Under the pieces are notes generated by a model, which searched no databases, was not told the origin of the DNA, and saw only the letters and a list, made by a program, of their open reading frames with translations. From NCBI GenBank assembly GCA_012521105.1, contig JAAYNA010000051.1:1-64000 (forward strand): a DNA stretch of 64,000 nucleotides, given 5' to 3'. This DNA comes from Clostridiaceae bacterium (GTDB lineage: Bacteria; Bacillota; Clostridia; DSM-8532). The position numbers and the translations under genes are program-made. Within the stretch, counting starts at the first letter, position 1; each line of letters starts with the position of its first letter. Of the stretch, positions 43,087-56,489 are shown piece by piece.

Positions 43087-45033
43087 TTACATGTCGAGCA
43101 GCTTGACTATTGCTTCCATTATACCGGTGTCATCCTTACGGGCACCGAACAGCGCATCTCTCATAATTTCTATATCTTCGGGGGTTACCTTGTCGCTGGG
43201 CTCCTTTTTCTCGTGATCGCATTTATTCCTAAGCGTTCTTATTTCCTCCAGCTTATTCCGGAAACCAAAGGTATAGATTTCCCTGAACTTATGCCTTAAT
43301 ACATTATCCTGCTCAAATCTGTACCTGCATTGATTCATTACATACCTGAAATTCCCGATATAGATGCTGTCCCATTCGGTAAGAAGCCTTGTCTCCCCAT
43401 CCTTCGAAAGTATTATATCGGAATTTTGAATTATGGGCAGACTTTTTATTTTAGGAAATGCTATTTTGTTAATTAAGCTTTCTACTACCTTTCCGTACAG
43501 GACGCCTACCGGTGACTGGTCGTTATCGGTTTTCCGGTAAACGTCGAACAAAAGCTCTGCCTCCACTATCAATCTTCGATGCTCTTTTCCAATTGCTTCC
43601 CATACATTGGAGCTGATACGTTTTTCGAGAGTACTTACCACCGTTCCGGTTTCAGAAGTTTCAGAAATATTGATGGCCATGTATTTCTGAAAAACATCTT
43701 TTACATACTCATTGTAATCCTTTTTATCTTCACGATTTAAAATATCATCATTAAACTGTTTAATTCTGGAGTCTTCTGCAATAAATTTTGAAAACAGCTG
43801 TTTATTTTGTTCCAACAGGACCTCAATGGTTTTTCTGTGCACGCTTATTGCCTCGTCCTTCATTTTATGGGATTCGGCAAGAATTTTGTTTTGCTCCTCC
43901 AGTGTGTCATCTTTCTTTTCATCATTCAATACCGCTATATTCTTTACATAATAATAAAAAGCCGTTGACCTGAATTGACCATCACTGTTTAGTAATCTTC
44001 TTGAAACACCCGTTTCCAGTTCAATAGACCAGTCCTTGTTAAGCTCCACGTTATTGCCCATTGCAATAGCTTTATACAGCTTCTTTTCTTTCTCGTCCGA
44101 TATATTCCATTGAGATTCAAGAATAATGGCCGCATCCGATGCAACCCTTTTTAAGAATTCATCTTCGCTTACGAAACCCTCACCCTTTTCTTCAAGCTCG
44201 TTCATAACCTTGCAAGCAGATCTGAGAATCCCGGGGAAACCGCCCGATACCCTTCTCACAACATTATATTTTTCCTTTTCGGGATCCATATTGCATTTTA
44301 TAAGATAATGGTCAACTTCCTTATCTGAGAACAATTCGAGGGTCTCATTTTCAAAAATACCGGGAAAGCCTGATTCATAGCATTCATTTGAAATTGACTT
44401 CAGCGGTTTTTTGCTTGTTATTATGTATCTTATATCACATTTTCTTACATCGCTGGCTTTTGCTCTGAGATAACTAAAGCTTTCCTTGGCAATTTTCCGC
44501 TTTTTGTCTGTAGTTTCTCTGTCTCCTATTGCCTTTGTCATCTTATCTATATCGTCAATAATTATGGTGGTTGTTATGCTCTTTTTATACAGAAAATATA
44601 AGAGCCGGTTCAGTAAATTTTTCAGTTCAAATATTGTTTTAGCATTCAAAACTCCCTTTTCACCGCTAAAAATTTTTTCGCTTTCTGCTTTTACTTCGTC
44701 ACTCATGAAGCTGCTTAACTGAATATTTTCATGGAGAGCCTCATGGAGGATGAAAAAGAAATCTTCAAAGCTTGTTGGCTCGGCATTATTAATCAAAACC
44801 ACAAGATTTTTTTCACAATCATCTATAAGATTTTTTTGCGTTTCCTCAAAATATATATAATTAACCAATGAAGACTTACCTATTCCGTCATCGGCGATTA
44901 TTGCAATGCAATTTCTGTTACCACTGAACACCTTATCTTTAATTTTCCATAAAATTTCCTCCCTTCCTATAAAATCTTCGGGTCTTTCAACAGGATAACG
45001 TTTGTCACACAAGCTGATATTATTCAAAAGCAA
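43087..45033 (-). CDS. STAND-type P-loop NTPase with C-terminal HEPN-like domain
   Basis: The 648 residues begin with an NTPase: F-I-G-R-E-E at 21-26, Walker A ADDGIGKS at 47-54, Walker B TIIIDDID near 156-163, and a winged-helix-like region near 320-375. A helical connector follows (about 380-450). The C-terminal part (about 480-648) is alpha-helical and carries R602-N-K-C-D-H607, the R-x4-H motif of HEPN ribonucleases. The first codons overlap the end of the 1591-aa gene by 14 bases, so both are made together. I infer an NTP-switched effector, possibly an RNase, paired with the larger protein. No signal peptide or membrane segment. Confidence 0.75.
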   Translation of the reverse strand: MLLNNISLCDKRYPVERPEDFIGREEILWKIKDKVFSGNRNCIAIIADDGIGKSSLVNYIYFEETQKNLIDDCEKNLVVLINNAEPTSFEDFFFILHEALHENIQLSSFMSDEVKAESEKIFSGEKGVLNAKTIFELKNLLNRLLYFLYKKSITTTIIIDDIDKMTKAIGDRETTDKKRKIAKESFSYLRAKASDVRKCDIRYIITSKKPLKSISNECYESGFPGIFENETLELFSDKEVDHYLIKCNMDPEKEKYNVVRRVSGGFPGILRSACKVMNELEEKGEGFVSEDEFLKRVASDAAIILESQWNISDEKEKKLYKAIAMGNNVELNKDWSIELETGVSRRLLNSDGQFRSTAFYYYVKNIAVLNDEKKDDTLEEQNKILAESHKMKDEAISVHRKTIEVLLEQNKQLFSKFIAEDSRIKQFNDDILNREDKKDYNEYVKDVFQKYMAINISETSETGTVVSTLEKRISSNVWEAIGKEHRRLIVEAELLFDVYRKTDNDQSPVGVLYGKVVESLINKIAFPKIKSLPIIQNSDIILSKDGETRLLTEWDSIYIGNFRYVMNQCRYRFEQDNVLRHKFREIYTFGFRNKLEEIRTLRNKCDHEKKEPSDKVTPEDIEIMRDALFGARKDDTGIMEAIVKLLDM

Positions 45034-48000
45034 TTTCCCCCCTGCTCATTTCTGCATCAATTTCTTTACTGTAAATTTCTATAACTCTTTGCACCGACCA
45101 TGCTTTTTTAAGCCATCGCCTCCACAGCTCCACAGAAACCCGGAATCCTCCGCTTACCGGGTTTTCTGCCAGGATATTAATCCTTAGCATATTATTAACC
45201 GCACTTGACACGCGGGTCTTGTACAACAGGCCATTAAGACCGTATCTGGTTTCTATATCTTCAGCTTTTTCGTACAGCTTCTTCATAGTAATATAGTCAT
45301 TATAATAATCCAGTTCTTCTGCTATTGCAGCAAGCACAATCTTTTCAGTAACATCGGACAAAGACTCCCACATATTCTCGTAATTGCCGTACTGATTTAC
45401 CTCAAGAGCAACCTTTGCTGCAATTTCTATGTCCGTAGGATATACTACATATCTTTTTTCCTTGTTTAGTATGCTGATAACCTTTTTGCATAAGATTGAT
45501 ACATAATAGGCATGTCCGTTGGTTAGCATAAAAAGTCTTTCCAATGTATCAGGCAAATAATGAAGAATTCCTTCATAGGGTTTTTGAACCATTTCGTATA
45601 TTTCAGACCTTTGATGAAAGCCTATTTCAACAGGTTGGGAGGTATCTGATATTGACAGTGCTTCGTCCACAAGCATATTAATCAGATACCCGCCACCGGC
45701 GATAATAATTTTAATCTTTTCGGAATGCTGCATCTGGCTTCTTATGGTCTTGAATAAATCCTGCGAATATTTCCCCTGCTGTACACTGAGTATTATTGAT
45801 TCAAATTCATCAATTAACAGCAGAAGCTTTTTGTCCTGGAGTTTTCTTTCCACTGCCCTGAAAAAACGTGTCAACCGGATCAGAGGATTTCTGTCAAACT
45901 CTTCAAAAGAAGGCAAATCAATATCAATACCCTGTTCGCTAAGCCCATCTACGATCTCACAAACAAACATGTCGTAAACCAGCTCTGCGGTATCGTTGGC
46001 AGGGTACATTTCGCCATCGCAATAAACGGGTATAAACTTATCATTGAAATTATTCCGTATATAATACAGTAACGAACTTTTACCAATTCGTCTAAGCCCG
46101 TACACTATAAATGTTGTGTTGCCTATTCCGTCCGACAGGCCGTTTTCTATTGTGTGCAGGATATCCTTTCTTCCAAAAAAGCCTTTTTTATCTGTTATCG
46201 GAGTTAAAACAAACATATCGCGAATAAGACTGAAATCATCACTACAATCTGGAATAATTTCAATGGTTTCCTTTAGTGACACTGTCTGCTTTTCTTCGTC
46301 CCCGGTCCTGACATTCACAAGAACAGAATAGACTCCACCTTCGGTAAGTCCATGGTCAATCCTTACAGGGATTTTTTCATTTTCGCGAATGGTTTCATAA
46401 AAGAACTCCTGTGAGAAAACAACATTTTCATTCTTCAAAATTCTAAAATCTGTACTTACGTCAAATGCTACCGCTTCCCCAAAATTTACAATCTGAAACT
46501 GAAGGGCATCGCTTTCATGTAGTTTCCTGTCAATATTCAAAATCACAGGCTTGATGTCCGGCATTTTGGAAAGCTGCCTGCTTTCCTTCAAAATAAGCCC
46601 ATCCACACTACTGATAAACTGATGCAGCAAATTTTTATATGGATTGCTTACTTTTCTTGAAATTGATTCACTAAAATCCGCAGTATTCAGAGACAGATGC
46701 GACAGCAGCACTTTCTTTTCAGCAATTTCCGGAGACTCATAATAATGTTTTACCTTAATAATAAATTGCTGAATAACATCAAATATCTCGTCATAGACCT
46801 GGACATACACCGGGCTTATTTTGGGTATGTATCTGTAATTGGATATTCTGAACAGTTCTATTGCACTGTTCAGATATTTTAATCTGTTAAACAAATCCAC
46901 AGGCCGGTCTATACTGATATATGCCTCGAACAGGTTTCTTAAAGCATAATCCATATAAGTATCGGGTACACTTAAGCCCGCCTTTATTTCACCATGAAGA
47001 AGTACTAAAAACTCATAGCTGAATACAAGCTTTCCTTCATAATCCTTTTTGTAATCAAAATCAGCTATCACCGTATACACATACTCATTAAAAAGAAGAA
47101 AAAAGTCCACATTGATGTTCAGCAAATACGCCTGTTTTGCTGCTTCCAGGAAAAGCTTTGCTTTATCATGAAGCTTTTGTACTTCGTTAATTTTTTGCAT
47201 ACTTTTAGCAGAAGTTTTTAAGCTTTGGAAATAGCTCTCTCTGTTTTCATGCCCTCTGTCGGGAAACTCGGTAAGTTCATGATAGAGATTTGGCACCAGA
47301 TGTGAGAAGTCATCAATACCGTGCCATTTTTCAGAGGAAGTAAAAAATGTGTTTATCAGTTCAAGAGATTCATTGTCACTGACGCGGCTAATATCGGAGA
47401 CAATATTTGCAATTGGAATCTCTGAACGACGATTAGTATGAACAGCCCCTCTATCAGGTTTCATTGTATCACCACCCGACATTGGTATAATATAGTTTAA
47501 GTTTTCCACGCTGCTTTCATATAGTAATATATTATCCTTAATATTTTCCAGATGTCTTAATGCCTCTATCTCATTGCCTGCAGTTTTTTCTTTAAAGGAG
47601 TTAATAATATGCGCTGCGGGATGATTCAGCCGTTGGTGTACAGAATCAATCAGGTCTGCCATATCCCGGTATTCCTTTGATGTAATTATTCTCCTTAGTG
47701 CTGCCACCTTATAACTTAAGTCCCTGTCCGAAGATAAGTCCATTGGCTCATATATTCCAGCTTTAATGAAAATGTCGCAAATATACATCATAATCCTTGA
47801 TGTATCCTGCTTTGGAATCTTGTTTTTATATTCTGCCACATATCTGTAATACTCTTTTGCCTGCTTATATCTTTTTAAATCCATTAAAGCTTCGGCACAT
47901 AGGAAATAAAAAGAGGAATTTTCTTCATAAGCTGTCAGGCAAAGTGAATAAACCTCAAGCCTTAACTCAGCTTTTCGTTCAGTGTCCAGGAATTTTGACT

Positions 48001-49795
48001 GCATAACCCCCTTAACAAGGGCTCTATAATCATAAACTCCAAGCATAAATCTTAGCAACTCTTTTTGCTTTTCTTCATCATCAATGGATTCAAGAAGGGA
48101 AATACACCGCTGCCTTGTTGCCGAAACGGTGTCATGCATAATTCTTTTTTCTAACATTTTAAGAAGCCCAACAGAGAAATCCCCGGTAAAGCATTTGTAA
48201 AGCACGGGGTTAAGTTTACGGGATAATCTTAAAACTCCTTCGTTAAGTTCCTTCCTGTCAGTTACAGACTCTAAAAAAATGCTGAAAAGAAACTTGCTCA
48301 CTTCAAAATCCTGTGAGCTTTTAACAATCTCAACAGTTTCTCCAAATTCAAGCAATGTTCTGTTTTCCGGGTTGCACAAACAGACAAGTACGCCATAAAG
48401 GCCCCGCTCATTCATTGCACAACAGAAATTAATGAAGGCCTGCCTTGCCTTTTCCTTTTCCCCTTCCCCTGTTTCATTAATTTTATCATACAGGCTTAGA
48501 AGCCACCTGATTCGCATTTTATATAAATTCAGTTTATTTGCCAATCTTACCCGTGGCAGTTTTCTTCCTACATTATCGATCTTTTTAGCATATTGTTCTA
48601 TTCTCTCTCTTTTTTTATAAATCAGGCATGTGAGTATGATCTTGAAACAGTAGTCCATATATTTCTCATCGCTGAATTTACAGTGATTTAAAATATGTTC
48701 CTGTATGCCAATACCCGTTTCGGGTCTGCCGAGGGCAAACAAAGCTTCAGCGTATACATCGCAGACAGCAATATCGTTGGGATATAGCCTGTACAACAAT
48801 TCAAAAACCTGAAGCATACTATCTGGGCAGTTGTATCTTTGAATATCGGAATAAAACCCGTTCAACTCTCTCCAGGAAGGTGGCTTGGGATATGATGTGG
48901 CAAATTCTGCAATTTGCTTTTCAAGTTCAATGTTTCCCAAGTCTTTAGCAAATATCAGTAAATCATAAATCAACGATATATATTTTTCACTGTCTTTTAT
49001 ACCGTCACGGGTCTCCTGTTCCCAGAATTTTTCCCATTCTTCCAGATAACTTTGGTAATAGGCCCATTTTAGCAATATCTTAGGGTTTCTATGTGAGCGA
49101 TAGCCTTTTTTGTGCATCTCGAATGCTCCCGGAATATCGCCTTCAATTTCTTTAAATATCCCTAAAGTAAAGTATTTCTCGGTATGGGACAACAGATTAA
49201 TATTGGTTTTAAAAAAAGTTTTTATATCAGATATTAGTTTTTCTTTGTCAAACCTTTCGGTTATCGCAGGATCCACAAGTTTATTCGCATTATTGCAAAA
49301 GAATTTTGCATACCCGCGAACCTGATTATCTGTACTTTTGCCCCGGGTAATGGCCATATATGCGGCATGGTGTGCCTCGATCCAAAAACCCTTGTCAATA
49401 CAATAGTTTTGAAGAAATTTGTAATCGCTTTTGCTGTTGGAAATCTGGCATTGGTTTAAAAAACAGACATAAGAATATTTATCGCATTCCGAAAAACCAC
49501 TTTGCTGATATAATCTGCCAAGTATATTCCAGAAAATTCTGTTATACCTGTCCTGGCTTAAAAGAACAAGGTAAAAAAGAATTTGCTCGTTAATGTCCCG
49601 CCAGTTTTCATTTTTGTTCGAATATTCCTTACTCACATCTTTTGGAACTCTGCCTGCAAAGTATTTATTCCAGATTTCTGTCAGCTGCGGTTCATCTAAA
49701 ACTTCAGATACTTTATTTTTATCACCCTGTAATAACGTCTTTTTAAATAAATCTGTAATTTCAAGTGTTTTTGTAATTTCGTCAATAGTGAACAT
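45020..49795 (-). CDS. Large TPR-like protein with C-terminal STAND/ATPase_2-type NTPase
   Basis: From the ATG at 49795 the product is 1591 residues. Residues about 80-1000 are helical with TPR-like repeats (for example an L-Y-P-N-D-x-A-V-x-D-x-Y-A-E-A-L-F-A pattern). About 1075-1180 looks like an Ig-type beta sandwich. The NTPase starts at a GFFGRKDIL segment, with Walker A GLRRIGKSS near 1232-1240 and Walker B LLLLIDEFES near 1325-1332. A winged-helix-like end (about 1450-1591) follows. The layout suggests a sensor and switch, with the HEPN-bearing partner as output. It lies 31 bases after a class II aldolase gene. A TTG at 49834 is a less likely start. Confidence 0.78.
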   Translation of the reverse strand: MFTIDEITKTLEITDLFKKTLLQGDKNKVSEVLDEPQLTEIWNKYFAGRVPKDVSKEYSNKNENWRDINEQILFYLVLLSQDRYNRIFWNILGRLYQQSGFSECDKYSYVCFLNQCQISNSKSDYKFLQNYCIDKGFWIEAHHAAYMAITRGKSTDNQVRGYAKFFCNNANKLVDPAITERFDKEKLISDIKTFFKTNINLLSHTEKYFTLGIFKEIEGDIPGAFEMHKKGYRSHRNPKILLKWAYYQSYLEEWEKFWEQETRDGIKDSEKYISLIYDLLIFAKDLGNIELEKQIAEFATSYPKPPSWRELNGFYSDIQRYNCPDSMLQVFELLYRLYPNDIAVCDVYAEALFALGRPETGIGIQEHILNHCKFSDEKYMDYCFKIILTCLIYKKRERIEQYAKKIDNVGRKLPRVRLANKLNLYKMRIRWLLSLYDKINETGEGEKEKARQAFINFCCAMNERGLYGVLVCLCNPENRTLLEFGETVEIVKSSQDFEVSKFLFSIFLESVTDRKELNEGVLRLSRKLNPVLYKCFTGDFSVGLLKMLEKRIMHDTVSATRQRCISLLESIDDEEKQKELLRFMLGVYDYRALVKGVMQSKFLDTERKAELRLEVYSLCLTAYEENSSFYFLCAEALMDLKRYKQAKEYYRYVAEYKNKIPKQDTSRIMMYICDIFIKAGIYEPMDLSSDRDLSYKVAALRRIITSKEYRDMADLIDSVHQRLNHPAAHIINSFKEKTAGNEIEALRHLENIKDNILLYESSVENLNYIIPMSGGDTMKPDRGAVHTNRRSEIPIANIVSDISRVSDNESLELINTFFTSSEKWHGIDDFSHLVPNLYHELTEFPDRGHENRESYFQSLKTSAKSMQKINEVQKLHDKAKLFLEAAKQAYLLNINVDFFLLFNEYVYTVIADFDYKKDYEGKLVFSYEFLVLLHGEIKAGLSVPDTYMDYALRNLFEAYISIDRPVDLFNRLKYLNSAIELFRISNYRYIPKISPVYVQVYDEIFDVIQQFIIKVKHYYESPEIAEKKVLLSHLSLNTADFSESISRKVSNPYKNLLHQFISSVDGLILKESRQLSKMPDIKPVILNIDRKLHESDALQFQIVNFGEAVAFDVSTDFRILKNENVVFSQEFFYETIRENEKIPVRIDHGLTEGGVYSVLVNVRTGDEEKQTVSLKETIEIIPDCSDDFSLIRDMFVLTPITDKKGFFGRKDILHTIENGLSDGIGNTTFIVYGLRRIGKSSLLYYIRNNFNDKFIPVYCDGEMYPANDTAELVYDMFVCEIVDGLSEQGIDIDLPSFEEFDRNPLIRLTRFFRAVERKLQDKKLLLLIDEFESIILSVQQGKYSQDLFKTIRSQMQHSEKIKIIIAGGGYLINMLVDEALSISDTSQPVEIGFHQRSEIYEMVQKPYEGILHYLPDTLERLFMLTNGHAYYVSILCKKVISILNKEKRYVVYPTDIEIAAKVALEVNQYGNYENMWESLSDVTEKIVLAAIAEELDYYNDYITMKKLYEKAEDIETRYGLNGLLYKTRVSSAVNNMLRINILAENPVSGGFRVSVELWRRWLKKAWSVQRVIEIYSKEIDAEMSRGEIAFE

Positions 49796-49826
49796 ATTTA
49801 TTAATCCTGTCCTGTCATTTTTTATT

Positions 49827-51116
49827 TTAATCAAGTTTAAAAGCTTCTTTTATATCGTTTATCTGTTTATCATTAATAACAACAACATCCCCAAGACTTT
49901 TAGCGGCAATTAATGCTTTAGCGCTGTATTCTGCTACCTCCAGCCTGTCAAAAGCATTTAGCAGTGAACTGCCTGTTACAATAACACAATCGTTTTCAAC
50001 AAGGACTATTGGTGTTTGTGGTACAAATAAATCAGCTACCATGGCAGGCTGCATAAAACTTGAACCAAATGGGATTTTGGGAATTTCTCTGAGAAGGATA
50101 TAACTTTCGGGTATGGTCCTTGAATCAAAAGATTCATTTGTCACCGCAAAAGTCATAATATTAAACGGGTGGGCAATTATAACAGAATTTACATGCGGCT
50201 GCTTTTCGTAAATATACTTGTGCAGCAAAACAGATCGGCTTGGAACTTTCCCTGCCTCTTTCTTCCCGTCTTCAATGCGGACTATTTGATCCACATCTAG
50301 GTATTTTCGATCCACATTGTAAGGTGTAATAATAAAGGATTTATCGTCTAAACGTGTGGAAAATGTTCCCTGAGTACTGGTAAATAATCTTTGGTCATAG
50401 GATCTGTGTATTAGCTCGCACATTTCTTTACGGGCGAGTCTTTCATGACTGCTGTAGCCTTTTGGAACAAATTCCTCCATTTCAATATGTCTTTTCTGCT
50501 TTGAAATTTCCACATGCTTGACTGTAAGTGAAACAGGCTTTCCAATCCTTCGTGCGTTGATCTCCAAACGGGCACTGAAGTCAAGGGTTTCAAAAGCCAT
50601 GAAAGCCTCGAAAAGGTCTTTTCCGACCACTACAATACCATGATTTTCAAGTATTACTGTGTTAATTCCCTGTCTAAGCACTGCAGCTATTTTCTCACTA
50701 AGGTCATCACTGCCCGGAAGACCATATTCGGCTATACCAACCTCCCCGCAAACCAAATTCACATCGGGTATAAGCCTGGTGTCGGGCTGTTTTCTTACAA
50801 TGCTGAACGATACCAGCGCCGGTGGATGCGCATGTAAAACAGCTTTGACATCGGGCCTTTGTTTATACGTGGAAAGGTGAAATGGAAGTTCACTGGAAGG
50901 TTTATGTTTCCCAATAATTGTTCCATCGGATTTTACCTGGACTATATCCTTGTTTGTAAGAGAGCCTTTATCTATACCTGCCGGTGTTATCCATACATCT
51001 CCGTTTTCATCCTTTATTGACAGATTTCCTCCCGAAGTTGTGGTCATTCCGTAACCATAAATTCGCTCCATTATCATAACAAGCTGGTCTGCAGGATGTA
51101 ATAATTCAAATTTCAT
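49827..51116 (-). CDS. Tandem class II aldolase/adducin family protein
   Basis: The 429 residues contain two consecutive class II aldolase domains. The first (about 1-205) is complete, with T-S-G-G-N-L-S near 28, the metal-binding HAHPPA near 90 and ENHG near 150. The second (about 225-429) keeps the fold, but the equivalent sites read IAHPFN and ENDC, so its metal site looks damaged. Single-domain relatives split sugar phosphates such as fuculose- or ribulose-phosphate. GAAGGAG supports the ATG at 51116. It lies 31 bases upstream of the large ATPase gene, probably in the same transcript. Confidence 0.85.
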   Translation of the reverse strand: MKFELLHPADQLVMIMERIYGYGMTTTSGGNLSIKDENGDVWITPAGIDKGSLTNKDIVQVKSDGTIIGKHKPSSELPFHLSTYKQRPDVKAVLHAHPPALVSFSIVRKQPDTRLIPDVNLVCGEVGIAEYGLPGSDDLSEKIAAVLRQGINTVILENHGIVVVGKDLFEAFMAFETLDFSARLEINARRIGKPVSLTVKHVEISKQKRHIEMEEFVPKGYSSHERLARKEMCELIHRSYDQRLFTSTQGTFSTRLDDKSFIITPYNVDRKYLDVDQIVRIEDGKKEAGKVPSRSVLLHKYIYEKQPHVNSVIIAHPFNIMTFAVTNESFDSRTIPESYILLREIPKIPFGSSFMQPAMVADLFVPQTPIVLVENDCVIVTGSSLLNAFDRLEVAEYSAKALIAAKSLGDVVVINDKQINDIKEAFKLD

Positions 51117-51260
51117 AAACTTCGCTCCTTCACATAAAACTTTCAACAACCAAAGAAATTGCCAGGCAATTTCAGCACACCGTTTCAGTGTAGCAAGGAT
51201 TCAGATAAGTATATAATAACACAAATTGGAGATTAACAAATACATTAAAACAGTTGATTT

Positions 51261-52752: not shown

Positions 52753-53487
52753 TCATTCCTGCATTTCAGTAAGGTTTTTCCAATACTTTTTAGGCATGAA
52801 CTGCATCTGGGCGCGTGGGTTTTTACGTTCCTCAATGGCTATTGTTTTAAAAAATGCCTTCCAAAGCAATGCATATTCGTCTTCGGTGCTGTTTATATCA
52901 TTGGGAATTGACGGTATTTTATCTGTCAGTATTATTTCACTGCCATCATAAACAGCACTGACATTTCTTTTTTTATCGTGAATTATAAAAGGCATTGAAA
53001 GCCTGTCTACAAAATGTGGCGCAATTAAACCGGTAATATTGTAACCGGGTTCGTATCCTGCATAAAAAAGATCTTTAGATATTTCTTTAAACCTTAAAAG
53101 GCCAAGAAAGCGGTGGGATTCTCTTCTTACTTTCATGTCCAGATCAATTATTTTATTAATAAGGGGATCCTGTATGAAATCGGTGACAAGGCTACCCATT
53201 TTATAGCCAGCCTTTAAAAAATGGAAGATCAAATCCGGGGCGTTTTCATCCTCGCTTAACCATACCCGATAAATAATCTCCTGCGCCCGGCGGGATATCT
53301 TTTTCGGGATCGATGAATACACCCGTTCAAACTTCTCCATATCGGTCTTAATTTCCTTAACTTCATCCAGGAAGGAAGGGATATAGGCAAATTTGTTTTT
53401 AAGTGACGCATCCCGTTCCTTTGATGCATATGCTTCAAATACGCAGGTTAAAAGACCCTCAAAGCTGCCATCATACAGATATATCAT
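52753..53487 (-). CDS. TIGR03915/DUF4130-type DNA metabolism protein
   Basis: The 244 residues match a family that is nearly always paired with a radical SAM protein (TIGR03916) and is called a probable DNA metabolism protein. Visible features are YLYDGSFEGLL at the start, H-R-F-L-G-L-L-R-F near 140 and the GLIAPHFVDR stretch near 180, followed by F-I-I-H-D. Its biochemical role is not established; a link to DNA repair is suggested by related uracil-DNA-glycosylase fusions. It begins six bases after hslO. The radical SAM partner is not in this window. Confidence 0.82.
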   Translation of the reverse strand: MIYLYDGSFEGLLTCVFEAYASKERDASLKNKFAYIPSFLDEVKEIKTDMEKFERVYSSIPKKISRRAQEIIYRVWLSEDENAPDLIFHFLKAGYKMGSLVTDFIQDPLINKIIDLDMKVRRESHRFLGLLRFKEISKDLFYAGYEPGYNITGLIAPHFVDRLSMPFIIHDKKRNVSAVYDGSEIILTDKIPSIPNDINSTEDEYALLWKAFFKTIAIEERKNPRAQMQFMPKKYWKNLTEMQE

Positions 53488-53493
53488 TTAAAA

Positions 53494-54420
53494 TCACTCT
53501 TTCGGATTTTCATCTGCTTCAGAAATATTCTCCTTCCTTGTCTGGCTTAATATATTATCAATTTCAGAAGGCTGAAATACATATTTTGTTCTGCAGAAAT
53601 GGCATATAAGCTCGGTTTCTTTCTTATCAGCAGCCAATTCTTCCAAATCGTCGATACCAAGACTTAGAAGGTTTCTTTCCATCCTCTCCCTGGAACAGTT
53701 GCATTGATATTTAACGGGTTTTGTATCCAAAAATATCAATTCTCTGCCCGGGAGCACCTCTTCAATAATCTGTTCCAATGAGTTCTCCGATTCAAGCAGC
53801 TTTGTAACAGGTGGCATGCTTTCCACACATTTCTCAAGCCAGGATATATTCTCTTCACTGCATCCGGGCATTAACTGAATAAAAAGCCCACCGGCATTTA
53901 TAATATTTCCATCCCTTCCAACCAGAACCCCAAGACTTGTAACAGTGGGGGTCTGTTCGGAAGCAGCGTAATAATAAGTAATATCCTCAGCAATTTCGCC
54001 CGATACTAATTTCACACGCCCAACGTACGGTTCCTTTAACCCCAGGTCTGTAACTACATTTAAATAGCCTTTTCCCACCGCACCGGCAATATCAAACTTA
54101 CCTTTATCATTTAAAAGTATATCTACATACGGGTTATGAACATATCCCCTGACATTTGAATTGGCATCGGTTACAACAACGATGCTTCCTAATGGTCCAT
54201 CCCCTTTAATCTGTATAGTAATTGTGCTTTTTTCGCTTTTCAGAGTACCGCTCATCAAAGCAGCTGCAGTTAAAGTTCTGCCTAAAGCCACAGCGGATGT
54301 AGGATACATCTGGTGAACATCTTTTGCACATGCTGCCGTATCAGTGGTAAGGGCAGCGTATATACGTACCTGACCATCTTTTGTCATTGCTCTGAGCATA
54401 TAATCTTTCATATTATTCAT
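53494..54420 (-). CDS. hslO: Redox-regulated chaperone Hsp33
   Basis: The 308-residue protein is an oxidation-activated holdase. The zinc-binding cysteines of its redox switch are Cys240-x-Cys242 and Cys273-x2-Cys276, all present. When they form disulfides the protein unfolds locally and binds misfolding clients. An acidic tail follows. Translation may start at the ATG at 54420 or at 54411; AGGAG lies close to the first and far from the second. It is in an operon with the TIGR03915-type gene downstream. Confidence 0.95.
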   Translation of the reverse strand: MNNMKDYMLRAMTKDGQVRIYAALTTDTAACAKDVHQMYPTSAVALGRTLTAAALMSGTLKSEKSTITIQIKGDGPLGSIVVVTDANSNVRGYVHNPYVDILLNDKGKFDIAGAVGKGYLNVVTDLGLKEPYVGRVKLVSGEIAEDITYYYAASEQTPTVTSLGVLVGRDGNIINAGGLFIQLMPGCSEENISWLEKCVESMPPVTKLLESENSLEQIIEEVLPGRELIFLDTKPVKYQCNCSRERMERNLLSLGIDDLEELAADKKETELICHFCRTKYVFQPSEIDNILSQTRKENISEADENPKE

Positions 54421-54605: not shown

Positions 54606-55601
54606 TTACGATGATTCTAATTTAAGTAAAAAGTCCTGTACAGGATTATCCCTTACTCCCATAAAACCAATGTTTTTTCCACCTGAGCCTGTCACCCGGT
54701 GGCATGGAATTAATATTGGCAGACGGTTCTTTCTTAAAACCTGTCCTACTGCTCTGGCAGCATTCCTGTTCCCCGCTATTTCAGCCAGTTCCCGGTATGT
54801 TATTGTACTTCCGTAAGGTACCTTTAAGAGAGCGTTATAAACCTTTATTTCGAAGGGTGTGCCCTGTACTTCAAATGGAATGTCAAATACTCTTATTCTG
54901 CCCTTAAAATAGTCTTCCACCTGTTTTCTTGCATGCTCTGCTACATTATTACCTGGAAACACCGCAAAATTTTCATATTGCGGTTCGCTGCCCGGAAGAA
55001 GTATATCCGTTACACAATCATCGTCTGAGAAAATGGTAACCATGCCCAGATTTGTCCTTGCAACAGATTTATATCTTATACGGTTTTCAAGAGCATACCT
55101 TACCGAAAGCCACATTTGCATCTTTTGTTCCAGTGATATGGAGGCATTGGCAGGGCTGGTTGAAGGCAGGCGCATATAAAAAATATCGCGTTTGATATCA
55201 GGCAGCACATTCTTTCTAAAGTGTTTCTCAGACGTCCCCCCATTGCAAAAAACAAATTTAATATTTGGATATGTGTTTAAAAGCCCTGCCACATCATTAG
55301 GCACCTCATCGCTGATGTTTGAATCAAGACTTCCCTTCCTTTTACAGGATTTATAAACATCCCACAGGGCTATATTTTTTTTCTTCAAAAAATCAATCCG
55401 TTTATTGTAATGGGCCTCGGGTTTTTCATTAAATATACCGTAAACGAAAGGCCAGAAAAAATTACGAGGGTGGGCATAGTACTGCTGCTGTCGTAAAGAC
55501 TCAGCACCCGGCATAGTACCCAGGATCAGAACCTTGCTTTCATTATTTATTATAGGTTTAAAAGATCTTAAAATTAAATCTGATTTATCCAAATTAGACA
55601 T
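54606..55601 (-). CDS. Fusion of hypoxanthine-DNA glycosylase and methylated-DNA methyltransferase
   Basis: The 331 residues join two DNA repair activities. Residues about 1-170 match the family 6 uracil/hypoxanthine-DNA glycosylase group, with ILGTMPGAESL near 26-36, Y-A-H-P-R-N-F-F-W near 42-50 and an LPSTSPAN motif near 145. Residues about 175-331 match O6-alkylguanine-DNA methyltransferase, with the acceptor Cys300 in PCHRV, and Y-x-E-L-A and N-R-N-A-A-R-A-V-G upstream. The first removes deaminated adenine, the second reverses alkyl damage. AAGGA lies before the ATG. It is separated from hslO by about 185 bases. Confidence 0.9.
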   Translation of the reverse strand: MSNLDKSDLILRSFKPIINNESKVLILGTMPGAESLRQQQYYAHPRNFFWPFVYGIFNEKPEAHYNKRIDFLKKKNIALWDVYKSCKRKGSLDSNISDEVPNDVAGLLNTYPNIKFVFCNGGTSEKHFRKNVLPDIKRDIFYMRLPSTSPANASISLEQKMQMWLSVRYALENRIRYKSVARTNLGMVTIFSDDDCVTDILLPGSEPQYENFAVFPGNNVAEHARKQVEDYFKGRIRVFDIPFEVQGTPFEIKVYNALLKVPYGSTITYRELAEIAGNRNAARAVGQVLRKNRLPILIPCHRVTGSGGKNIGFMGVRDNPVQDFLLKLESS

Positions 55602-55790
55602 AACTGTTGTCCTTCATAATAATTTTTGTTTTTAAATAATTAATATGGAAAAATATACATTGTTACCGTGTTTTGTTTCTGTTAAGACTAATTAATACAA
55701 TATTAATATTTTATCATATCATAACCCAGCTTTAAATATTGCATCCTGTTAATTGCTGTGATAAATTATGGAAAAGTGAAAGGAGTAATT

Positions 55791-56489
55791 ATGGACTTAT
55801 TGCGTTTATTTGTAATAGCAGTTACACCGGGAATTGCTCTTGCCATGGGTTTATACCTTACCGACAGATACGACAGAGAGCCTGTAAGGCTTTTGCTGAA
55901 ACTTTTTCTTTTTGGAATGCTGTCTGCAGTTCCAACAATTTTTGTGGAAAGGTTTTTAAGCAATATCAATTTTCTTCCCGGAATTCTGTCCATAGCGTGG
56001 ACAACATACATTGTTGCAGGGTTCACAGAAGAGTATTTCAAGCGTCTTGTTGTCATGCGGGTAGCTTATTATCATAGCGCTTTCGATGAAAAACTTGACG
56101 GGATTATATATTGTGCATACTCTGCACTTGGTTTTGCTACAGTTGAAAATATAATGTATGTGGTGTCGGGTTACGATGCTGATCCTTATATTGGTTGGTA
56201 CCGGGGACTGTTAAGTGTTCCTGCCCATATGCTGTTTGCAATAACCATGGGCTATTATCTGTCGCTGGCAAAGTTCTGCCCTGATCAGGAAAGTTCCAAA
56301 AGGTACTTTACCCTGTCTTTAGTTGTACCAATGCTGTTTCATGGAACCTTTAACTTTATCCTTTTGGCACAAATTCAGATACTAATGGTTCTGTTTATAC
56401 CTTTTGTGCTTTTTATGTGGCTTGTGAACTTAAAAAAACTAAACAAATTTTATCAGGAATCGAAGGCATGGAATAAACTTGGTTTATAA
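55791..56489 (+). CDS. PrsW-like intramembrane metalloprotease
   Basis: The 232-residue membrane protein has about eight hydrophobic segments. It carries the PrsW family motifs: E-E-x2-K in FTEEYFKR near 84, ATVENIMY near 122, a P-A-H-M-L-F His near 155 and HGTFNF near 195. PrsW proteases start the cutting of anti-sigma factors in response to envelope stress. No anti-sigma gene is adjacent. The ATG at 55791 is preceded by AAAGGAG; an ATG at 55758 is less likely. It is transcribed alone. Confidence 0.88.
   Translation: MDLLRLFVIAVTPGIALAMGLYLTDRYDREPVRLLLKLFLFGMLSAVPTIFVERFLSNINFLPGILSIAWTTYIVAGFTEEYFKRLVVMRVAYYHSAFDEKLDGIIYCAYSALGFATVENIMYVVSGYDADPYIGWYRGLLSVPAHMLFAITMGYYLSLAKFCPDQESSKRYFTLSLVVPMLFHGTFNFILLAQIQILMVLFIPFVLFMWLVNLKKLNKFYQESKAWNKLGL

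Follow-up and report, generated by a model that had tools for sequence, protein, structure and literature searches.

A conserved and probably bifunctional fusion of hypoxanthine-DNA glycosylase and O6-alkylguanine-DNA methyltransferase in a family-level group of Clostridia

A single gene on the minus strand, at 54606..55601 of the window (the whole 64,000-nucleotide stretch of a Clostridiaceae bacterium contig that was analysed), encodes a hypoxanthine-DNA glycosylase (HDG, UDG family 6) and a complete O6-alkylguanine-DNA methyltransferase (Ogt) in one chain in which a linker is absent. The fusion is genuine and conserved, and its strongest points are a parallel with an archaeal repair protein and an apparent switch of partner by the neighbouring DUF4130 gene. 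From its sequence, the protein is predicted to combine hypoxanthine excision and O6-alkylguanine transfer, a bifunctional reading to which we assign a probability of about 0.75.

The open reading frame runs unbroken from an ATG to a stop codon over 331 amino acids, and both of the repair enzymes that the original prediction placed in one chain score above curated cut-offs. The glycosylase domain (residues 9-173; 55083..55577, minus strand) matches the NCBIfam equivalog for DNA-deoxyinosine glycosylase, TIGR04274, over residues 13-164 with 181.1 bits against a cut-off of 80, and the Pfam UDG family PF03167 over residues 18-154 (43.7 bits, cut-off 24.3). Its best sequence match among solved structures is 2l3f (residues 10-172), a putative uracil DNA glycosylase of Methanosarcina acetivorans that was deposited as an uncharacterized protein. 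The Ogt domain, which has both subdomains (residues 175-331; 54609..55079, minus strand), is matched by the NCBIfam model for methylated-DNA-cysteine methyltransferase, TIGR00589, over residues 248-328 (76.9 bits, cut-off 46.4) and by PF01035 (DNA_binding_1 of Pfam) over residues 249-330 (85.9 bits, cut-off 27), and its best sequence matches among solved structures are M. tuberculosis Ogt entries (residues 184-317). PF02870, the Ogt N-terminal domain, was not reported by Pfam for the window protein itself; it lies above its cut-off of 21 in all four other fusion proteins scanned, at 22.6-24.7 bits. The junction, expected near residue 170, was located at about residue 174, since 2l3f aligns to residues 9-173 and the Ogt structures start at 173-176. 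It had also been said that the glycosylase is usually a single domain, and 100 of the 129 non-fusion HDG rows of a 137-row tree do lie in stop-to-stop frames of at most 200 amino acids. A separate translation of the Ogt half from an in-frame ATG at Met187, which follows the motif AAGGA, was considered and rejected: only the window protein has Met at this position (1/8 fusions), so that there is no conserved start. Promoter-like and terminator-like sites at the fusion locus were near chance, with 16 of the former against 11.3 (sd 3.3) and two of the latter against 2.7.

The AlphaFold model of the fusion has a mean pLDDT of 93.7 and a pTM of 0.88; it was built from an alignment of 64 sequences in which the stand-alone Ogt rows were trimmed to the catalytic part and L159 is missing. 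Blocks of pLDDT 95-98 extend through residues 161-200, and confidence stays high across the junction. The glycosylase half, residues 9-173, can be superposed on 2l3f over 156 residues (Z 20.3, 1.9 A, 35% identity), and residues 176-331 on 4wx9, the M. tuberculosis Ogt with DNA (Z 21.0, 1.7 A, 151 residues). In the model the last glycosylase helix (157-171) is followed directly by the first Ogt strand (175-183), which together with both superpositions indicates that two complete domains abut without a linker. Pfam, NCBIfam and the superpositions on solved structures therefore agree on the two family names that had been proposed.

The active-site motifs, which were predicted to be intact, are invariant in all eight fusions. 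In the glycosylase half, Asn47 (55461..55463, minus strand) falls in an ungapped alignment opposite the Asn at residue 39 of the Methanosarcina glycosylase 2l3f, which we take to be the motif-1 Asn that is catalytic in UDG family 6. In the Ogt half, Cys300 of the PCHRV motif (54702..54704, minus strand), the predicted alkyl acceptor, is presumably the PCHR cysteine that accepts the alkyl group in alkylguanine methyltransferases, and the residues that we assume, by match to the human enzyme, to line the pocket (Tyr269, Arg283, Asn292, His301 and Glu329) are conserved in the same way. The window protein thus has the sequence marks of UDG family 6, namely TIGR04274 above cut-off and the motif-1 Asn, and those of an Ogt, namely TIGR00589 and PF01035 above their cut-offs, the PCHR cysteine and the pocket residues. 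Alkyltransferase-like proteins (ATL) have the acceptor Cys replaced; membership of that class was rejected, Cys300 being retained in 8/8 fusions. The protein is not an Ada either: no Ada zinc-binding or AraC domain is present in the chain, for which Pfam gives UDG and DNA_binding_1 alone at E values up to 1. Endonuclease V (PF04493) is absent from the same matches, also at E up to 1, and has no match in the genome, so that assignment to the alkyltransferase-endonuclease V fusions was set aside as well.

A search for the domain pair in other genomes had been suggested. Among 197 relatives searched, the full-length fusion was found in eight genomes, the window's own included, all of one family-level group; by profile search these represent 8 of the 32 genomes of that group and four genera (G000, G001 and G002 in g1; G012 and G016 in g4; G007 in g5; G008 and G013 in g6). 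The other seven fusion proteins share 54-76% identity with the window protein, and one of the fusion-bearing genomes, G001, consists of a single 2,974,379-base contig. For five fusion pairs, dN/dS (Nei-Gojobori) was 0.10-0.15 in the glycosylase half and 0.13-0.27 in the Ogt half, values that are rough because 5 of the 10 dS values exceed 1; both halves are under purifying selection in 5/5 pairs computed. An error at the junction, either a frameshift or an assembly join that brought two genes together, had been named as the point to check. No observation was found to support it, and it was rejected, because the same fusion recurs in a quarter of the family genomes, one of them a single contig, with seven homologous full-length proteins at such divergence and dN/dS well below 1; we regard the chance of an artefact as negligible.

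Twenty-four of the 32 family genomes are without a full-length fusion, and in 14 of these HDG and Ogt matches lie on separate contigs. Within the fusion-bearing genera, 3 of 11 genomes (G003, G006 and G017) are without it. In G006 and G017 the contig ends at the place where the fusion is expected, with a DUF4130 or AlkA-like fragment reaching base 2 of the contig, so that these two absences weigh little. G003, which has no TIGR03915 match, carries at the end of a contig another, stand-alone Ogt that clusters with the one from G027; this genome may represent a true loss of the fusion. Outside the group no fusion was seen in the genomes sampled, by searches that would show one in the same domain order and reported as a single match; in a phylum sample of 398 genomes the window's own genome alone stands out with it among the matches listed. 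A contig search with an alignment as query returned 103 relatives and six full-length fusions among the 80 analysed, all from genomes already counted, and the single window protein as query gave no match. Mobile spread was rejected: 404 of 72,556 plasmid records match some part of the protein, none with one place covering 80% of it, and no relative was confirmed among 48 pattern matches in viral contigs.

At an E value of 0.001 the fusion is the sole PF01035 match of its own genome, and its locus the sole place in that genome matching the fusion protein. Endonuclease V was sought in all 32 family genomes, own included, and gave no match in any of them (32/32 negative), while the same search found matches in 6 of 14 control genomes. 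Since the gene is the sole match for both enzymes and endonuclease V has no match, its loss should, as judged from these searches, remove both predicted activities unless another enzyme covers hypoxanthine. Such an enzyme may exist; the glycosylase searches covered the AlkA-like type among those of the HhH type.

An Ogt tree of 42 rows places the eight fusion domains in one weakly supported group (77/77), which is joined by the Ogt of L140, from genome G011 of the same family, with support of 100/97; this sequence has a long branch and its placement is unsure. L140 (784-1995) is itself a fusion, of a HAD phosphatase-like domain with Ogt. A topology that unites L140 and the fusion Ogts with nine stand-alone copies from genus g2 was not rejected (p-AU 0.10), so that the Ogt half may well have come from within the family. 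The HDG domains of the eight fusions make up a single clade in their tree (98/95), and a topology that groups this clade with the family's 14 stand-alone HDGs was rejected (p-AU 0.00036). This AU test used 62 rows (8 from fusions, 14 from stand-alone HDGs of the family and 40 further ones), selected after the 137-row HDG tree, which excludes L110 and L147; the trees leave out the duplicate loci L001, L032-L037, L039, L072, L123-L128 and L148 and domain hits shorter than about 90 residues. The rejection means that joining the stand-alone HDG of the family to an Ogt does not by itself explain the fused glycosylase, which, as placed by the tree, is a second HDG lineage, within the family seen in the fusion genera alone. 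An adjacent HDG and ogt pair was not encountered: the available flanks of 74 non-fusion HDG loci, longer than 3 kb on each side in 48 of them, contain no Ogt match, and in the 14 family genomes that have both genes these are on different contigs (14/14), although the contigs are short and some pairs could be near each other.

The neighbourhood of the fusion is well conserved. Downstream on the same strand, in 8/8 fusion loci, is a gene for a putative DNA repair protein of the TIGR03915/DUF4130 family (52753..53487, minus strand in the window), which in the L035 locus is a 53-residue piece at a contig end. The next gene downstream of the fusion is hslO (53494..54420, minus strand), encoding the redox chaperone Hsp33, and it lies between the fusion and TIGR03915 in five of the eight loci; in the other three (G007, G008 and G013) it is absent and DUF4130 comes directly after the fusion, starting in G008 about 17 bases past it. 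The divergent upstream neighbour in 8/8 loci encodes a PrsW-like intramembrane protease (55758..56489, plus strand; 180.9 bits, under the 225-bit cut-off). Beyond PrsW, an AlkA-like HhH glycosylase is present in 4/8 fusion loci, and the other four fusion genomes, the window's included, gave no match to this glycosylase at E 0.001. A scan of proteins encoded near the fusion revealed neither a regulator nor a recognisable nitrosative-stress gene. Farther away in the window, the aldolase-family protein at 49827-51149 has two matched stretches per chain for several models, apparently through tandem duplication of a class II aldolase domain, and two large overlapping ORFs at 43087-49834 (648 and 1604 aa), P-loop ATPase-like by eye, had no PADLOC match at E 0.01.

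The name of the TIGR03915 family refers to its link with a radical-SAM protein, TIGR03916. As counted from coordinates, the two genes adjoin in 16 of the 18 family genomes that have TIGR03915 without a full fusion; the exceptions are G024, which has no TIGR03916 match, and G006, where the two genes are on separate contigs. Among the eight fusion genomes, TIGR03916 scores above cut-off in six and is away from TIGR03915 in all six (252 kb away in G001), while no match to it was found in G007 or G008; in G016 another contig carries a second TIGR03915 match, which does not adjoin TIGR03916 either. With TIGR03915 beside the fusion and TIGR03916 elsewhere, the partner has apparently been swapped: DUF4130 seems to have left the radical-SAM gene for the HDG-Ogt gene in the fusion group, probably in one event and not in eight, given that the fusion genomes are related.

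Among known proteins, the archaeal fusion of an alkyltransferase with endonuclease V comes closest. As described for AGTendoV of Ferroplasma acidarmanus, an O6-alkylguanine alkyltransferase is likewise chained to an enzyme for base-deamination products, and the fusion repairs O6-alkylguanine as well as some deamination products; an ATL-EndoV fusion has also been described (PMC10779285). AGTendoV differs in that its partner, endonuclease V, is a different enzyme from HDG, in that it is archaeal whereas HDG-Ogt is bacterial, and in that, according to the same review, some fusions, the endonuclease one among them, have the C-terminal part of the alkyltransferase alone (PMC10779285), whereas HDG-Ogt keeps both subdomains. 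By analogy, the window protein would work like AGTendoV with a different enzyme for deaminated adenine. Compared with the stand-alone UDG family 6 HDG of Methanosarcina, residues 9-173 have the same fold, family profile and aligned Asn; that enzyme type, however, usually has one domain and is here fused to an Ogt. In Ada and Ada-AlkA fusions alkylation repair domains are also chained to other functions (PMC1839093), but their regulatory Ada domain was not detected in the window protein. Finally, AlkD-HDG fusions (L047, L049 and L051) join the same glycosylase family to an alkylation-repair domain, although the partner is an N-terminal AlkD-type DNA_alkylation domain and the HDG belongs to a separate branch of the HDG tree. 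These proteins come from Verrucomicrobia/Kiritimatiellae (L047:3236-4489, L049:831-2120 and L051:3272-4492); L047 and L049 match PF08713, L051 shares 89% identity with L047, and the full-length fusion occurs in one of 116 sampled genomes of the class of L047, namely its own. In another genome of that class (G164), L189:933-1910 encodes an HDG fused to a NUDIX domain. From the parallels with the alkyltransferase-endonuclease V and AlkD-HDG fusions, we read HDG-Ogt as a new combination of domains that would serve a known purpose, namely to repair both deaminated and alkylated bases. No description of an HDG-Ogt fusion was found in open-access PMC titles and abstract openings, a scope outside which subscription papers and bioRxiv fall, and protein databases may list the architecture.

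In the proposed mechanism the N-terminal domain would flip out and excise hypoxanthine, the product of adenine deamination, and the abasic site left behind would pass to base excision repair; the C-terminal domain would move the alkyl group of O6-alkylguanine onto Cys300 and be spent thereby. The two active sites would act independently on one chain, and the fusion gene would supply both activities at a fixed ratio. Several lines of evidence argue for this bifunctional reading: the domains above cut-offs, the superpositions, the invariant residues, purifying selection on both halves and retention of the fusion in 8/32 genomes; the sole matches in its own genome, the absence of an endonuclease V match and the company of DUF4130 (8/8) and of an AlkA-like glycosylase (4/8); and the parallel fusions of an alkyltransferase with endonuclease V in Ferroplasma and of AlkD with HDG. 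As to what drove the fusion, we tentatively favour nitrosation, because it makes both lesions: it would deaminate adenine directly and produce alkylating N-nitroso compounds. Nucleic acids have been reported to acquire hypoxanthine and xanthine through nitric oxide chemistry, and guanine to be alkylated at O6 by nitrosamines (PMC7763974). Against both the bifunctional reading and this driver stand the lack of a recognised regulator or nitrosative-stress gene among the neighbours scanned, the missing hslO in 3/8 loci and the 24 of 32 family genomes without the fusion.

The driver could instead be heat, with spontaneous adenine deamination and guanine alkylation by endogenous methyl donors in warm anaerobe hosts. 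We consider this possible but somewhat doubtful: one fusion host record (L034) is named Thermoclostridium sp., the family has no EndoV match and high temperature has been tied to base deamination, yet the same review states that a homologue of hypoxanthine-DNA glycosylase had not been found in hyperthermophilic archaea (PMC8438529), and relatives with separate genes belong to the same family. It is also quite conceivable, at a little under even odds, that the fusion is passive, the genes having been joined in frame with co-expression as the sole result and no gain from having one chain. Such an origin would suit halves that are complete, ordinary domains abutting without a linker, and a fusion known from a single family-level group, in which drift might have brought it to fixation; on the other hand, the chain has stayed intact across four genera down to 54% identity, and the ready adjacent pair of HDG and Ogt genes was not seen in the loci and short-contig genomes surveyed. 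We find it rather improbable that the glycosylase half acts chiefly on another substrate, for example uracil, xanthine or a base carrying an alkyl group, and joins the Ogt mainly in repairing alkylation damage. Substrates do differ within the UDG superfamily (PMC10776899), an independent fusion pairs HDG with the alkylation enzyme AlkD, and the fused HDG is a lineage apart from the family's stand-alone HDG; the score against the DNA-deoxyinosine glycosylase equivalog, more than twice its cut-off, nevertheless points to hypoxanthine.

A broader proposal treats the alkyltransferase-endonuclease V, HDG-Ogt and AlkD-HDG fusions as one convergent pathway for the repair of deamination and alkylation damage. 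In it the three fusions would be independent inventions driven by co-occurring nitrosation lesions, DUF4130/TIGR03915 would be a third member that has left its radical-SAM partner for the HDG-Ogt gene, and alkylation of Cys300 might tune the glycosylase through the rigid junction; taken jointly, we think this unlikely. The fusion hints at where to look for the role of the predicted repair protein DUF4130/TIGR03915, and it raises the question of why a reusable glycosylase should be tied to a single-use alkyl acceptor. If active, HDG-Ogt would be a second evolutionary route by which a transferase for alkylguanine and an enzyme for hypoxanthine repair came to share one chain, with a different hypoxanthine enzyme from that of the archaeal protein; two solutions to the same pairing suggest that both lesions may be a shared problem for the cell.
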